Positions 14,886 to 60,970 of a DNA stretch of 64,000 bases are shown here, in pieces. This DNA is from a virus: positions 1-64,000 of the IMG/VR virus record IMGVR_UViG_3300045747_000182. One strand, written 5' to 3'. Under the pieces are notes generated by a model. That model saw only the letters and a program-made list of their open reading frames with translations, did not search any database and had not been told where the DNA came from. A program made the position numbers and the translations under genes. Each line of letters begins with the position of its first letter. Position 1 is the first letter of the stretch.

Positions 14886-17099
14886 ATGAATCCACTAGAC
14901 TATCTCACGGCACGAGTTGAGAAAGTAGTAGTCAACTCCGACAAGATTTACAACGAGGGTGCTCGCCTTCTGGCACACTATCCAACATGGGAATACGAAC
15001 TTGAACGCTTTATTAATGAAAGTTGGGATACTCTCCTACGATACTGTATACGAAACAAAAATGCTAAGTTTACTGCAACCGTCAAACTTACCTTTGCTAG
15101 TGACCTCATTGGCAAACGGGTGGTTAGGGCTATTGGTGGTGATGAATCAGACATTAAGTCTACTCTTGCCATCGGTGATCTCCTCCTTGAAACGTTTCTT
15201 CAGGATGGTCTAATTGATATCTTCAGGGAATACAATGGGATCAAGGCTCCCTACATGGTACGGATTGTCAATCAGACATGTGATATTAAGCCCACACTTA
15301 TTGGCACCGTCTTTGAGCCTCCGTTACCCATCACAGGATTGTTCAGTGGAATTACCAAAGAACCCTTTATCAAAGGCTGGACCAACGGTAAACTGTTTTA
15401 CGACTACCTCGACAGACCCTTTGTTAAGGCACTTGAGACGCTTAGACAGCAGCCTTGGGCTCTCAACAACCCTCTCCTAACTGCTATTCAAAGCAATCCA
15501 CCACCAGAAACTCTTGCTCTGGTAGACGCCGATGGTGAAATCCATGAGTGGAATATCCACCATGAGAACCTGCACCTGCCCAAGAAGCTTACTCATACAG
15601 ATAGTACTGCTTTTGCCGGAAAGAAAGATCCCAAGCTACAGCGTCTGGTAAGTAAGTACTTTGAGTATGTTCAGGTAGTACGCAAAGCGGAGTTGGTACA
15701 GTCACAAGGGTACCCATTCTACCAAGAAGTCAGCTGTGACTACCGTGGCCGGATATACTATGCAGAATCCTTTCTGGAATTCCAAGGTAGTGACTTGGCC
15801 CGTAGTCTGTTCTTGTTTCATAACAAGAAGGTGGTTGATCAGCGTGGCTTCTACTGGCTATGTATTCATGCAGCCAGTTGCTTTAATCGATCCTTCACTA
15901 TTGAAGATCTTCGTTTGGTAAAGTACTTCGAGACAGACTACATAAACTATCTGCAGAAGGAAGGTCTTGACACTATATCCGTGGATAAGATGACACTCGA
16001 TGACCGCTACAAATGGGTCATCCACAATATGGATATGGTCAAGGATGTCTCAGCCCGTAAACTAATCATGGACTACGCGGAAAAACCCTATAGCTTCCTT
16101 GCTGTATGTATGGAGATCACAAAATACTATGACTGCAAGAAAGCAGGTATCCCTTGCTTGAGTGGCTTTCCAGTACCTATTGATGGCAGTAATAACGGCT
16201 GGCAACATCTGGCAGCTATGAGTAAGGATGCTCAAGCAGGTGAACTTGTTTCTCTGACTAACACACCTATTCAAAAAGACTTCTACGTGGCTGTAGCAAA
16301 AGAGCTTATCACTCTGATGCCTGAATGGTTCTCCGAAAAGAAAATCCCCATGAAGCATATCCGTAAGGGTATCGCTAAACGGGGGTCTATGACTCGGGCC
16401 TACTCAGCCGGACGTAATCGTATTGCAAAGAACATGTACGATGACTGCCATATGGAAGGGTTTACTGTTAAATACGGTATTGATGAGAATACCTGCGGTG
16501 AACTGGCAAAGAACCTTATTGAGGCAATCAATGCTGTCTGTGCCGGACCTCTTCAAACAACCAAATACTTACAAAAGATTGCTGAGCATGAGCTTAATAA
16601 CAGTCGCAACTCTTTATCTTGGCATACTCCAAGCGGATTTCCTGTCGTTTATAAGGCCTTTTTACAGCACGAACGTAAACAACGAGGTACTATCAAGGGT
16701 ATCGACGGGAACAAAGATGGGAGAGTAATGCATGTACTTAAAGTTGATGTCCTTAATCAAGAGACTGGCGAAAAGGTGCCATGCCGTAGAAGTTTTGCAA
16801 GTGGTATCAGTCCTAATGTTGTACACAGCTATGACGCAGCCCACATGGCAAATACAATCGTCGCTTTTAACGGCAGTTTCGCTGCTGTCCATGATTCATT
16901 CTCAGTACACGCATCGGAAGTTGACTTCCTACAAGACGTAACTAAAATGACGTTCATCGCGCAATACGATGTGGACAACTTCTTTGATATCCTGATGGAT
17001 ACTTTGATGCTGCATAAGGATACTTTCATGTTCCCTAAACCTGAAACAGGTAACTTAAACCTGAAGGAAGTCAACGAGAGTAAATACTTCTTTTGCTGA
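14886..17099 (+). CDS. T7-type single-subunit RNA polymerase, 737 aa
   Basis: Diagnostic blocks of the T7 RNA polymerase family are present in order: DGSNNGWQHLAAMS with the catalytic Asp433, KRGSMTRAYSAG with Tyr506 at the T7 Tyr639 place, SPNVVHSYDAAHM, and HDSFSVHA with the second catalytic Asp. The N-terminal domain is about 150 residues shorter than in T7 (883 aa), so promoter recognition may differ. The enzyme would transcribe middle and late genes from the short repeated elements described separately. Start preceded by AAGGAAAAT. Confidence 0.93.
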   Translation: MNPLDYLTARVEKVVVNSDKIYNEGARLLAHYPTWEYELERFINESWDTLLRYCIRNKNAKFTATVKLTFASDLIGKRVVRAIGGDESDIKSTLAIGDLLLETFLQDGLIDIFREYNGIKAPYMVRIVNQTCDIKPTLIGTVFEPPLPITGLFSGITKEPFIKGWTNGKLFYDYLDRPFVKALETLRQQPWALNNPLLTAIQSNPPPETLALVDADGEIHEWNIHHENLHLPKKLTHTDSTAFAGKKDPKLQRLVSKYFEYVQVVRKAELVQSQGYPFYQEVSCDYRGRIYYAESFLEFQGSDLARSLFLFHNKKVVDQRGFYWLCIHAASCFNRSFTIEDLRLVKYFETDYINYLQKEGLDTISVDKMTLDDRYKWVIHNMDMVKDVSARKLIMDYAEKPYSFLAVCMEITKYYDCKKAGIPCLSGFPVPIDGSNNGWQHLAAMSKDAQAGELVSLTNTPIQKDFYVAVAKELITLMPEWFSEKKIPMKHIRKGIAKRGSMTRAYSAGRNRIAKNMYDDCHMEGFTVKYGIDENTCGELAKNLIEAINAVCAGPLQTTKYLQKIAEHELNNSRNSLSWHTPSGFPVVYKAFLQHERKQRGTIKGIDGNKDGRVMHVLKVDVLNQETGEKVPCRRSFASGISPNVVHSYDAAHMANTIVAFNGSFAAVHDSFSVHASEVDFLQDVTKMTFIAQYDVDNFFDILMDTLMLHKDTFMFPKPETGNLNLKEVNESKYFFC

Positions 17100-44605: not shown

Positions 44606-46071
44606 TATACCTCCGCAGAAAAATCAATCCAGGCCGTACCGAGGCTAAATCTCCACCAACCAGAAACGCCAATAGTAGGTCCTGATGTCAAATTAAAAGC
44701 TAATTCTGAGCAGTTAGGGGTGTTAACTGTGCCTATTATAGTGGTTGCAGGGTAAACACCCCCAGTAGCAAAATAAGTTAAATGTGTTGCCGCAGATTGG
44801 CTAAAAATTGGATTGCTTCTCATAGCTATGGGGAAATAAAATACCCCGTAGATCTGAGTAGACGAATAAGCGGAGGCAGTAAACACAGGTGAGTTTGCGG
44901 CCCCATTGGCGGAAAATCTGTAGTAATACCTATGACACAAAGCCAACTCCGTACCATAAGGACGGTGTTCAAACTCGGTAGCAGCAGAGCCAATTTCAAG
45001 TTGAACAAATCCAAAGGAAAGCATCTTACCAACACCCATGGCAGTTGCAGGACCACTTTGGTAAGCCAGATCGACAATCAAACCATTTGTTGCGGCTGCA
45101 GGGATAGTTACAGTTTTGTAGACCTTGGTCCAAGTGTTTGTTGGAATAGAGGTTGAGCTACCTGTGCCTGAGATGTCTACGATTGTCGCCAATGTAAACA
45201 CATCCGCTGCACCGGAGTTGTATCCAATCCTTGGTGTGACGGTGTAGTTGCTAACGTTGTCGTGGTATACCCAATACGATAGTGTTACTGTTTTATTAAT
45301 TAAGTGCCTGCTATTGAGTGCTTCGATACGCTGATGGACGTTAAGTACTTTTGTATTCGTGCCTGCAGTCATCCTGAATACGTTTCCATACGGCATACCT
45401 GTAACGTTATTGGGACCCAAAGGGTTGGTGCATGACCCTGCATTACCCGTAGTACTGTCGTGTACAACATACCAACGATCCGCGCAATACACTGGTGTTG
45501 GAGCGGTGTCTGGAGTTGTTGCAAAGCTTGAGCCACGTTGAGAAACCCTGAAGTCACCATTAATTAAAACGTTACGGAAGCCAGCAAGCTCTGAGTTATC
45601 AACATATTGCTTTGTTGCAGCCTGAAGAGCACTCACAGGATCCTGCGCTAGGGTCACTACTCCCGTAAATGTAGGGCTAGCTACAGGTGCTCTGGTTGTA
45701 TCTGTTGGATGGACATGATCTCCACGAGTATAAAGCGTAGAAACACCCGCAGTGGCGGTACCATTAATTAAAGGTGCTGCGCTTGAGGGTGTATAAGCAG
45801 AAGCACTGGCGGCAGCGGCAATGGCACTGTTATTTGCATTAGTAGCAGATGTACTTGCTGCAGATGCGCTATTAGAGGCATTAGTTGCGGATGTACTTGC
45901 TGCAGATGCGCTATTAGAGGCATTAGTTGCGGATGTACTTGCTGCAGATGCAAGAGAAGCAGCGGCCTCTACTATTGAGGAGCCATTAGCCGAGGATGGT
46001 CCTGCTCCATTATCGTACTGACCTCCGGCGGCGTTACTACCTGTGGAGCCTGTTTTTGTTGTGTATCCCAT
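44605..46071 (-). CDS. Tail fibre with Ala/Ser repeats and jelly-roll tip, 488 aa
   Basis: Residues about 38-85 are 14-residue Ala/Ser/Thr/Asn repeats, a trimeric coiled-coil shaft. Then follow the fibre motif LYTRGDHVHPTDT, ATKQYVDN, and FRNVLINGDFRVSQRGSSFA leading into a carbohydrate-binding jelly-roll domain ending in VQLEIGSAATEFEHRPY, with LCHRYYYR after it. This domain order is common in receptor-binding fibres of podophages. It is the first fibre gene after the head-tail adaptor. Confidence 0.85.
   Translation of the reverse strand: MGYTTKTGSTGSNAAGGQYDNGAGPSSANGSSIVEAAASLASAASTSATNASNSASAASTSATNASNSASAASTSATNANNSAIAAAASASAYTPSSAAPLINGTATAGVSTLYTRGDHVHPTDTTRAPVASPTFTGVVTLAQDPVSALQAATKQYVDNSELAGFRNVLINGDFRVSQRGSSFATTPDTAPTPVYCADRWYVVHDSTTGNAGSCTNPLGPNNVTGMPYGNVFRMTAGTNTKVLNVHQRIEALNSRHLINKTVTLSYWVYHDNVSNYTVTPRIGYNSGAADVFTLATIVDISGTGSSTSIPTNTWTKVYKTVTIPAAATNGLIVDLAYQSGPATAMGVGKMLSFGFVQLEIGSAATEFEHRPYGTELALCHRYYYRFSANGAANSPVFTASAYSSTQIYGVFYFPIAMRSNPIFSQSAATHLTYFATGGVYPATTIIGTVNTPNCSELAFNLTSGPTIGVSGWWRFSLGTAWIDFSAEV
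45838..45960 (-). repeat. Three 42-bp direct repeats in the tail fibre gene
   Basis: Nearly identical 42-base units at about 45,838, 45,880 and 45,922 encode the 14-residue unit AASTSATNASNSAS. Copies two and three are the same over most of their length, so they could change number by recombination or slippage without breaking the frame. Confidence 0.9.
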
Positions 46072-55544: not shown

Positions 55545-55849
55545 GACAGTTTGACCGTAATTTTAGTCGATAGGGTAGTTATGGACTGAGATTACGGACA
55601 AAGATATCCCTACGTAGAGGAAGGGTATAGGCTGGGAATTACTTGGTAATAATTTTTGAAAATGGATTTTTGGGGGAATTTCTTTGGGGTACCCTTCTCT
55701 TTGTGTGTGGAAAAATTTTTTGTGTTGTTTGGGTTCGCCTTGCTTGCTTTGAGCACCCCCTGACTTTCTTGGGCGCTCGCTGGTTGGTGGGCGGCACCCG
55801 CTTCGGGTCGTACTGGCAGCACCTTTGCTGTGTTCTTTTAGGATACATC
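55545..55849 (+). other. Noncoding divergent region with GC-rich segment
   Basis: About 300 bases between the divergent late and small-gene blocks hold no convincing gene. The left half is AT-rich with runs of T and G. From about 55,735 it becomes GC-rich with several small hairpins, among them ACCCG-CTT-CGGGT (55,796-55,808) and GCAGCA-CCTT-TGCTGT followed by TTCTTTT (55,816-55,838), the latter terminator-like. The segment CTTCGGGTCGTACTGGCA at 55,801 is nearly the inverse of a stretch at 56,115. Packaging site, origin or control region are possibilities. Confidence 0.5.
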
Positions 55850-56086: not shown

Positions 56087-56239
56087 ATGTCTGTGCGACA
56101 TACCGCAAGTATGTTGCCAATACGACCTGAAGAGACAACATTCCGATATGCCTGTTGTGGGTATATCAGAGTGCGTCTTTGCATTCTAACCGCCGATGGT
56201 CGGGTACCATCAGGATGTCATTACGGAGAAATACCATGA
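56087..56239 (+). CDS. Unknown small protein, 50 aa
   Basis: The frame from ATG 56,087 ends with TGA overlapping the next ATG, and GGAG for the next gene lies within it. The product is Cys- and Arg-containing (TFRYACCGYIRVRLC). The overlap supports it, but the start has no clear ribosome binding site, so the frame may be only a leader. Confidence 0.4.
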   Translation: MSVRHTASMLPIRPEETTFRYACCGYIRVRLCILTADGRVPSGCHYGEIP

Positions 56240-56607
56240 CTACACGTACCGCAAACCTGTCCTTTGCCCAAATGGGCGCTATCCTTGCTGCTCACAACAG
56301 CACAGAGCAGACACCTGTGACGACATTCATCTGCGCTAATCCTACCAAGGGTGACGCTATCAGTGAGCCGATGAAGATCATCCATGTGCAGCGTAATGCA
56401 GCAAAGGGTGAGTTGTATGTTATCGGTGATGACGGTAACACACGTACCTGCCAGATCCGTCGCTTGAGTGACAACAAGATCATTGCAGCGAAAATGGGCA
56501 ATGAACTCTATGATATGGCACAGCTCTGCAAAGAGCGTGGTGTTGAAGTCAAGTTTGTTGCTGCTGGTGGTAACAACACCAACAAATGGTTCTACAAGTT
56601 CGCCTAA
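56236..56607 (+). CDS. Unknown protein, 123 aa
   Basis: ATG follows CGGAGAAAT. N-terminal NLSFAQMGAILAAHNSTEQT and a beta-rich remainder with a conserved-looking end NKWFYKFA. It does not match a family I know. It is followed by the first copy of the structured leader. Confidence 0.65.
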   Translation: MTTRTANLSFAQMGAILAAHNSTEQTPVTTFICANPTKGDAISEPMKIIHVQRNAAKGELYVIGDDGNTRTCQIRRLSDNKIIAAKMGNELYDMAQLCKERGVEVKFVAAGGNNTNKWFYKFA

Positions 56608-56613
56608 CTAAGG

Positions 56614-56680
56614 CCTCTTTCTCAGAGTAACAGAGAGACCATAGCACAGGGTAAGTACTGTGCAAACATCCCACTAACGA
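56614..56680 (+). promoter_or_regulatory. Structured leader element, copy 1
   Basis: This untranslated stretch contains TTTCTC and GAGAGA arms, then GCACAG-GGTAAGTA-CTGTGC, a six-base stem with the eight-base loop GGTAAGTA, then CATCCCA. Copy 2 at 57,061 keeps the loop and flanks but has other bases on both sides of the stem that still pair. It lies 20-25 bases before the ribosome binding site of the next gene. Confidence 0.75.
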
Positions 56681-56703
56681 TATCTTCACACAGGAGATCC
56701 ATC

Positions 56704-56985
56704 ATGGATAATCCCTCATATGACCACCTAGTAGTGGTTAATCGCAATGAATGCCAGACCAAGCTCTCCACTTGGTACAGCAAGAGACCTGAATTCGCAG
56801 GACGTCCTTGGGTAGTTCTTAACAAGAACACCGGCTATTTCATCTCACCAGCATTCCTCACCAAGGAAGATGCCGAAGATGAACGTGCGGAGATCATCGT
56901 GCAGGATATGTTCTCGGACTACGATGACGGAATATATTATCCCGAAGAATATTCCGATGTATCTGTGCAGAAAGCCTCAGAATAA
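56704..56985 (+). CDS. Unknown acidic protein, 93 aa
   Basis: ATG follows CAGGAGATCC. A polar start (DNPSYDHLVVVNRNECQTK) precedes GRPWVVLNKNTGYF, which could be small beta strands, and the C-terminal 35 residues are very acidic. No family recognised. Its mRNA carries leader copy 1. Confidence 0.65.
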   Translation: MDNPSYDHLVVVNRNECQTKLSTWYSKRPEFAGRPWVVLNKNTGYFISPAFLTKEDAEDERAEIIVQDMFSDYDDGIYYPEEYSDVSVQKASE

Positions 56986-57060
56986 CTGAGGTATTGCGGA
57001 GAGTCCAGTGAGGGATGACCTTTGGCAGATGTCGTCGTGGGGACTCAGCTTGTCAATGCT
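56986..57060 (+). other. Intergenic segment with potential RNA structure
   Basis: GAGTCC near the start and GGACTC 30-odd bases later can pair, and inside them GATGAC can pair with GTCGTC (one G-U) around CTTTGGCAGAT. No gene fits here. It directly precedes leader copy 2, so the two may form one long structured 5' region. Confidence 0.4.
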
Positions 57061-57120
57061 ACCTTTCTCAGGTTAACAGAGAGACCCTTACATGGGGTAA
57101 GTACCATGTAGACTTCCCAT
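57061..57120 (+). promoter_or_regulatory. Structured leader element, copy 2
   Basis: Same order as copy 1: CTTTCTCAG, TAACAGAGAGACC, then ACATGG-GGTAAGTA-CCATGT and TTCCCATCAAC. Four of the six stem positions differ from copy 1, on both arms, and pairing is kept. CAGGAG and the ATG at 57,147 follow. Confidence 0.75.
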
Positions 57121-57146
57121 CAACTACTTCCCATCAGGAGTATCCT

Positions 57147-57266
57147 ATGTACTACATCATCTCTCGTGCTTCCGGAGATATCATCGACAAACTCCCTCTC
57201 TATGCCTCAGCTTCAGACCTCAACAGGTGGTCAAGCAAAGACGTCTCAATCGTTATCTACAACTAA
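57147..57266 (+). CDS. Small unknown protein, 39 aa
   Basis: ATG follows CAGGAGTATCCT. The product is YYIISRASGDIIDKLPLYAS followed by a Ser- and Asp-rich end, probably a small alpha/beta peptide. Its mRNA carries leader copy 2. No family recognised. Confidence 0.6.
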   Translation: MYYIISRASGDIIDKLPLYASASDLNRWSSKDVSIVIYN

Positions 57267-57713: not shown

Positions 57714-57959
57714 ATGACAAAGAAATACCTTCTATTAACACCTATTCAAGGTGCTGACTATCAAATGACCAACAAGCAAATGATCATTGCCTTGACTGAA
57801 CAAGGTTGCGGTCATATCATTGCCAAAGACGTCAACGGTGAGACCATCATCTATGCATCTGCCCCAAAAGTAGAACTTCTCGAAGCCCTCTGCTCAAACA
57901 ATGAGTTTGATGGTATCGTTATCGAGTACACAGGGGTGTATGATTGTGTCATTGACTAA
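57714..57959 (+). CDS. Unknown small protein, 81 aa
   Basis: ATG 57,714 follows TAGGAAAACTGTA. The frame is open upstream to 57,675, but that part overlaps the previous gene. Possible alpha/beta fold with HIIAKDVNGETIIYAS. No family recognised. Confidence 0.6.
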   Translation: MTKKYLLLTPIQGADYQMTNKQMIIALTEQGCGHIIAKDVNGETIIYASAPKVELLEALCSNNEFDGIVIEYTGVYDCVID

Positions 57960-60279: not shown

Positions 60280-60370
60280 GTAATAGTTGGTAGTACAGCT
60301 AATCATGGCCACTTCTTCCACTCGTTTCTCTCCTAAAACTCTCACTCAACGTCCTTCTGAAAGCAAATCA

Positions 60371-60931
60371 ATGTCTAATCAATTCGAACCCCGTAACGTC
60401 ATCCTCAAAAACATTACCCTGTTCTGGGCCAAGCTGGATAAGCCAGTAGATAACTTCGCCGGAGATGCCCAACAATGGGAAATCCAAGCTCGTGTTCCTA
60501 AGAAGCGTCGTGCTGAACTGGAACAATTCGGTAAAGTCAAAGAGCAGGATGACGGTTCAGTGTCTATCAACTTCCGCAAGAAGTCTGAAAAGGCTGACGG
60601 TTCCCCATCGGCTAAAGTACGCGTAGTTGATGGTTCTAAAGAGCCTATTGACTCCAAGTCCATCGGTAACGGTTCTGTAGGTAACATCATGCTGATGCTC
60701 AAAGACTACGAAATCAAGCACCCTAAGACTGGTAAAGTGACTAAGTCTGGTACTCAGACCATGTTGACTGCGGTACAAGTCACTGACCTGAAGATCTTCG
60801 AAAAGACTGGTGGAGAAAACTTCACTGACTTTGACATGGAAGATGAAGCTCCTGCAGCAAAGAAAGCGCCTGCAAAAGGTAAGGCTAAACCAGCAGCTGA
60901 CGAACAAGATGACGACGACATCCCATTCTAA
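60371..60931 (+). CDS. Single-stranded DNA-binding protein, 186 aa
   Basis: The N-terminal about 140 residues (VILKNITLFWAKLDKPVDNF, QWEIQARVPKKRRAEL, NIMLMLKDYEI, AVQVTDLKIFE) fit an OB-fold phage SSB of the gp2.5/Enc34-like kind. The last 45 residues are Lys/Ala-rich, then strongly acidic, ending DDDDIPF, the classical partner-binding tail. It protects ssDNA and recruits replication proteins. ATG 60,371 is chosen, with 60,305 possible. A terminator follows. Confidence 0.8.
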   Translation: MSNQFEPRNVILKNITLFWAKLDKPVDNFAGDAQQWEIQARVPKKRRAELEQFGKVKEQDDGSVSINFRKKSEKADGSPSAKVRVVDGSKEPIDSKSIGNGSVGNIMLMLKDYEIKHPKTGKVTKSGTQTMLTAVQVTDLKIFEKTGGENFTDFDMEDEAPAAKKAPAKGKAKPAADEQDDDDIPF

Positions 60932-60945
60932 TCCATAGAATATAC

Positions 60946-60970
60946 ACCCCAAGGTAACACTTGGGGTTTT
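60946..60970 (+). terminator. Factor-independent terminator after the SSB gene
   Basis: ACCCCAAG and CTTGGGGT form a perfect eight-base stem around GTAACA, followed by a T run (TTTTC). Reads to the right. It would limit the promoter at 59,747 mostly to the SSB message. Confidence 0.85.

Follow-up and report, generated by a model that had tools for sequence, protein, structure and literature searches.

Why should two small early genes of one phage be preceded by closely similar untranslated RNAs, and what might such an RNA do? The question arises in the window analyzed here, 64,000 of the 64,134 bases of a virus record. The terminase it encodes shares 59% identity with the one from Roseobacter phage CRP-7, a podovirus that infects a marine roseobacter (PMC6918029); a search for the host through TerL matches in genome contigs gave no assignment. 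Early genes lie on the + strand from about 55.6 kb to the window end and continue to about 20 kb, with late genes on the − strand, and a single-subunit RNA polymerase gene with N4-like similarity is found at 14886-17099. Within a late-strand gene, ATGTACTTGCTGCAGAT occurs three times with 42-base spacing (45849-45951).

Two untranslated copies near the start of the early genes

The first-pass annotation of this DNA had described two untranslated stretches of about 60 bases, each before a small gene, whose stems differ in sequence on both arms yet keep their pairing (GCACAG/CTGTGC in one, ACATGG/CCATGT in the other). The window sequence bears out this description exactly. The copies occupy 56618-56663 and 57064-57109, 446 bases apart and near the start of the early gene block. 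One follows a stop at 56607 and the other lies after 56985, and 40 to 46 bases separate the loop end from the next start codon (56704 and 57147; Table 1). Compared without gaps, two 62-base stretches agree at 48 of 62 positions (77% identity), whereas the best comparable pair in eight first-order resamples of the region reached 34 to 37 of 62; the likeness is well beyond chance. The only open frame through either copy, 57015-57266 across copy 2, is not conserved, since in a close relative (L051) the spacing to the corresponding start codon is 2 bases shorter. The copies are untranslated, and the annotation's concern that they might be part of a coding frame can be set aside. A hairpin over the ribosome-binding site of both window copies was also considered and was dropped because relatives do not share it. 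Before the gA gene, the window has a hairpin at 56195-56211 (GATGGT-CGGGT-ACCATC), perhaps a decayed or different leader element; contig L091 carries a full copy of the element (type I below) at that place.

Table 1. Element copies, neighboring genes and operon signals in the window
Feature	Positions	Strand	Description	Basis
G/T-rich motif	55693-55735	+	TCTTTGTGTGTG..AAAA (TCTTTGTGTGTGnnAAAAGAATCA); upstream of first early gene; in 12 of 13 early regions examined
gA family gene, 123 aa	56236-56607	+	Upstream neighbor of copy 1; most relatives have the element before gA
Copy 1, hairpin 1	56618-56638	+	TTTCTC (56618-56623) / GAGAGA (56633-56638), loop AGAGTAACA	Sequence, minimum-energy fold
Copy 1, ACC between hairpins	56638-56640	+	Tail of GAGACC, invariant across aligned copies
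Copy 1, hairpin 2	56644-56663	+	GCACAG (56644-56649) / CTGTGC (56658-56663), loop GGTAAGTA (56650-56657)	Sequence, minimum-energy fold
F5 small gene, 93 aa	56704-56985	+	Follows copy 1; AGGAGA immediately upstream as ribosome-binding site
Copy 2, hairpin 1	57064-57084	+	TTTCTC (57064-57069) / GAGAGA (57079-57084), loop AGGTTAACA	Sequence, minimum-energy fold
Copy 2, hairpin 2	57089-57110	+	TACATGG - GGTAAGTA - CCATGTA; core ACATGG (57090-57095) / CCATGT (57104-57109), loop at 57096-57103	Sequence, minimum-energy fold
F6 small gene, 39 aa	57147-57266	+	Downstream of copy 2; by eye resembles the F6 that precedes the element in relatives
F3 family gene	57714-57959	+	In relatives often directly after the element or type II; not in the window
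SSB-like gene	60305-60931	+	Acidic tail ..DDDDIPF; last gene before terminator; homologs in 13 of 13 early arms examined
Intrinsic terminator	60946-60967	+	ACCCCAAG-GTAACA-CTTGGGGT then TTTTCTTTT; within early arm; about 30 bases to the next start codon

A compact RNA family in related phages

Searches with the terminase and the polymerase recovered more than 120 related viral loci. A scan for the loop with its flanking stem placed the element in roughly 30 of these, where it adjoins the terminase and lies on the early strand. We built a covariance model on 28 copies, and DNA pattern scans added further ones, giving about 58 distinct copies in related IMG/VR contigs, each of them on the early strand. 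Wherever the gene context was readable, copies sat in untranslated gaps of one small-gene module, a restriction in keeping with the cis-acting role that the annotation had suggested. When 28 records were searched over their full length, each returned 0 to 4 copies in the early module and nothing convincing outside it; element-bearing genomes had 1 to 4 copies, some head to tail. Pattern matches in L195, L197 and L198 were rejected because hairpin 1 is missing, short seeds yielding many chance matches.

Copies share a fixed anatomy. Hairpin 1 (UUCUC/GAGAG, with a loop of about 4 to 14 bases) ends in an invariant GAGACC. After its ACC come 0 to 5 free bases and then hairpin 2, in which 5 to 8 pairs close the octaloop GGUADGUW (D = A, G or U; W = A or U), a loop present in every copy. 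Conservation immediately 3′ of hairpin 2 is poor. Units measure 38 to 48 nt. In seven contigs (L141, L154, L178, L231, L235 and, later, L289 and L292), two full units follow one another head to tail and repeat every 38 bases, which sets the minimal unit at that length. Neither the ACC between the hairpins nor the GGU of the loop varies in the aligned copies, and the two could possibly pair as a pseudoknot.

Conserved unpaired bases, this possible pseudoknot and the tandem arrangement, which some riboswitches also have, would fit a riboswitch or an RNA of some different class (a new small self-cleaving RNA, for instance) present in the module by chance. Given a length of just 38 to 48 bases, the small number of conserved unpaired positions, the lack of association with a metabolic gene and the fact that no expression platform was seen, we regard such an identity as very unlikely.

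The annotation had recognized no known family. Our searches agree: the window has no Rfam 15 match at gathering scores, and permissive scans gave no match on the element. No convincing element was found in the named phages CRP-7, DSS3_VP1 and DSS3_PM1 or by blastn against a phage collection, and a pattern scan of cellular genomes produced ten matches, none convincing. The element defines a structured RNA family not catalogued before, of a general kind that is known; dozens of aquatic phages related to this one carry it, as does a single phage group that is not related.

Both hairpins covary

Selection for RNA structure, proposed from the two window copies, is borne out by further copies, which add compensatory changes in both hairpins; covariation persisted as the sample grew. 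Across 53 distinct rows, 92.9% of cells are paired, and the covariation score is 0.288, against 0.087 in shuffles and 0.02 to 0.06 for slid structures. Alignment A2 was fitted to the model and is biased toward it; the MAFFT alignment A1 agrees. Parsimony on a tree counted 19 compensatory events over the model pairs, or 15 without the loosely defined outer pair, and three or more events fell in four of the six variable structural pairs, compared with 20 of 761 other column pairs. Hairpin 1 covariation, absent from the first-pass annotation, takes the form U-A, A-U and C-G (the fourth pair of the stem homologous to that of copy 1, T-A/A-T/C-G in DNA). Hairpin 1 also has U-G in 51 rows, replaced once by C-G, and hairpin 2 stems are nearly free of G-U pairs. 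The two-hairpin structure is well supported, and each copy is a two-hairpin unit in early mRNA.

An unrelated double hairpin at the same junctions

In sister phages, a different double hairpin (type II) occupies the same gene junctions, in several genomes that lack type I (type II contigs: L081, L083, L085, L086, L087, L088, L095, L097, L098 and L268). In contig G027, gA is preceded by type I and followed by type II. Like type I, type II consists of two consecutive hairpins with covarying stems; unlike it in sequence, it has a 13-pair stem (CYURUAG..CUAUGGG), a variable second hairpin and no GGUADGUW loop. Covariation is strong (98.9% of cells paired), with numerous conserved wobble pairs (U-G and G-U) on the early strand. 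Type II is a second uncatalogued covarying RNA family. Its conserved same-strand wobble pairs point to early-strand transcripts and are hard to explain as DNA structure.

These wobble pairs bear on whether the element might act as DNA, for example as a palindromic binding site or as a hairpin promoter of the N4 type used by a virion RNA polymerase. The early promoters of N4 are short hairpins too, and N4 likewise has a single-subunit RNA polymerase; the polymerase encoded here has N4-like similarity, and hairpin 2 stems have almost no G-U pairs. In an N4 hairpin promoter, however, the loop has 3 bases and conservation extends from the hairpin as far as the transcription start, whereas the element has a loop of eight, a second conserved hairpin upstream and weak conservation 3′ of hairpin 2. 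If a site were read through the major groove, changes on both arms would not be tolerated, and the U-G/C-G variation in hairpin 1, together with the abundant U-G pairs of type II, points to RNA. No virion RNA polymerase gene was matched among the scanned large structural proteins, a search that a very diverged one could escape. Action as DNA is thus highly improbable.

Genes that follow the element

In relatives, the module runs TM, F4, F6, element, gA, element, F3. Genes directly after the element belong to at least five unrelated families, which makes autoregulation by one gene unlikely. Nor is the element the private operator of one gene, as it occurs before unrelated genes and also in Naomviridae-like phages without the window's terminase.

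The same variety weighs against a protein-bound translational operator, in which a phage or host RNA-binding protein would sit on the octaloop and GAGACC and tune how the small gene that follows is translated. Hairpins bound by proteins typically combine a fixed loop with a variable stem, and the hairpin 2 loop usually lies 34 to 46 bases from the start codon, although the distance to the ribosome-binding site varies from 0 to about 60 bases. Predicted folds of gA and F3 (OB-like and ferredoxin-like) are of kinds that can bind nucleic acid; these fold matches are weak, and gA, F3 and F6 all occur in genomes without type I, so that neither gA nor F3 is an obvious dedicated partner. The gA model is a small OB-like barrel whose top matches are toxin B subunits at 13 to 17% identity; because a sequence profile of gA found no such relative, we read this likeness to OB-fold barrels at the level of the fold only. 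The 93-aa F5 product matched nothing in Pfam or PHROG. Taken together, we consider a translational operator doubtful.

Near the start of the early arm, L063, L083 and L091 carry a further conserved leader around TTTCYCGGTTGG..CCGAGAGCGTCTTGC, which is possibly structured.

The module in a second phage group

Among the contigs with tandem units, those searched contain no relative of the window's terminase, and the L154 RNA polymerase is 50% identical to that of the Naomviridae phage DSS3_VP1. These Naomviridae-like contigs carry the segment F6 - element - element - F3; most likely, module and element moved together between phage families. A terminator lies between the element and the phage RNA polymerase gene. 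In L154, a −35/−10-like pair overlaps this terminator, so the polymerase gene may have its own promoter. The same region (L154 3999-4065) looks like an attenuator: CTCCC-TGCCAGC-GGGAG overlaps the terminator GCCAGC..GCTGGC, giving mutually exclusive hairpins and a TATAAT-like box. L154 also has a heme-oxygenase-like gene, judged from its translation (624-1160), and L264 and L265 have tRNA-like sequences, identified by eye, after the terminator behind SSB.

Another gap of the early operon in this group holds a hammerhead-ribozyme-like core, CUGAUGA..GAAA..UC (L154 2283-2352; also L141, L264, L266, L289 and L292). One of its stems changes on both sides, from CCGUU/AACGG to CCGCU/AGCGG; its Rfam score of 28.7 is below the gathering cut-off of 48.5.

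A conserved ribozyme-like sequence of this kind makes intergenic cutting plausible in that operon and is relevant to a role of the element in mRNA processing or stability, whereby a host or phage ribonuclease would cut at, or be blocked by, the double hairpin and the early polycistronic RNA would be split into segments with separate fates. Location suits such a role, since copies are intercistronic and directly follow stop codons, and the interchangeable type II stem, at 13 pairs, is long enough for a double-strand-specific nuclease. The type I stems (5 to 8 pairs), however, are short for RNase III, and the invariant octaloop and GAGACC suggest specific recognition instead of simple double-strand cutting. 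Processing or stability is a credible if rather unlikely explanation.

A terminator downstream of the elements

Almost all early arms in the window's group carry, on the early strand, one strong intrinsic terminator; it comes immediately after the SSB-like gene and lies downstream of the elements (shuffles: 0 to 2 such sites per arm). The next start codon follows about 15 to 70 bases past it in most genomes, which leaves little or no room for a promoter. Ahead of the first early gene, the conserved G/T-rich motif is a candidate early promoter region or genome-end feature. Promoter, untranslated double-hairpin RNA, terminator and distal genes together form the layout of lambdoid antitermination, and we therefore rank first, tentatively and by analogy, an RNA that would bring about antitermination in the manner of HK022 put or lambda nut.

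Under antitermination, the nascent element RNA would act on the elongating host RNA polymerase, either directly or through a bound factor, which, if there is one, would read the loop and GAGACC. The polymerase would then pass the terminator behind the SSB gene, and read-through would allow expression of the distal replication and RNA polymerase genes. Early-only location, independence of the downstream gene, tandem units and occurrence in a second phage group all favor antitermination. The SSB terminator does not itself require the element, as G010 has the same terminator and neither type I nor type II. Copies lie 1 to 2 kb into the operon, often just before a ribosome-binding site, a position that suits translational or stability roles as well. 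We place antitermination slightly above the protein-binding and processing roles guessed at in the first-pass annotation, both possible in themselves. At a more general level, the element probably governs transcription or handling of the early message.

Comparison with known antitermination RNAs

Structured cis-acting RNAs are barely catalogued for phages outside model systems, and the element combines strong covariation, a sharp consensus and a fixed genomic niche, which makes its function testable. Its replacement by an unrelated structure at the same sites and its apparent crossing between phage families add to this interest. A wider proposal is that types I and II represent a new class of RNA-only phage antiterminator (or polymerase-binding RNA) outside the lambdoid phages, in phages of roseobacter-type hosts, with at least two unrelated, interchangeable types at the same operon positions that travel with the small-gene module between phage families; in this full form the proposal is unlikely to hold.

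Lambda nut (boxA and boxB, with the N protein) resembles the element as an intercistronic early RNA before early terminators that has a small hairpin with a conserved loop. Its anatomy differs. A boxA-like GCTCTT occurs in only some copies of the element, where it is base-paired within the hairpin 1 stem, and is absent from the window and the tandem copies; in place of the nut pentaloop, all copies have the octaloop. Nothing obvious among the module genes read resembles an N-like arginine-rich early protein.

The HK022 put RNA is about 70 nt long and forms two stem-loops; it has two copies per genome, one of them 270 nt into its transcript, and acts over at least 10 kb (PMC9378689). The phage lineages differ, and the element is shorter (38 to 48 nt), has the GGUADGUW octaloop, GAGACC and tandem copies, and lies 1 to 2 kb into the operon; covariance model R1 had no match in HK022 at E values up to 10, so putL and putR are not its sequence relatives. 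What the two share is an arrangement: two adjacent hairpins in an untranslated part of the early transcript, in more than one copy per genome, independent of the adjoining gene and upstream of terminators that separate distal early genes (for the element, the SSB-end terminator in nearly all arms). If antitermination is the element's function, RNA-based modification of polymerase would extend well beyond HK022.
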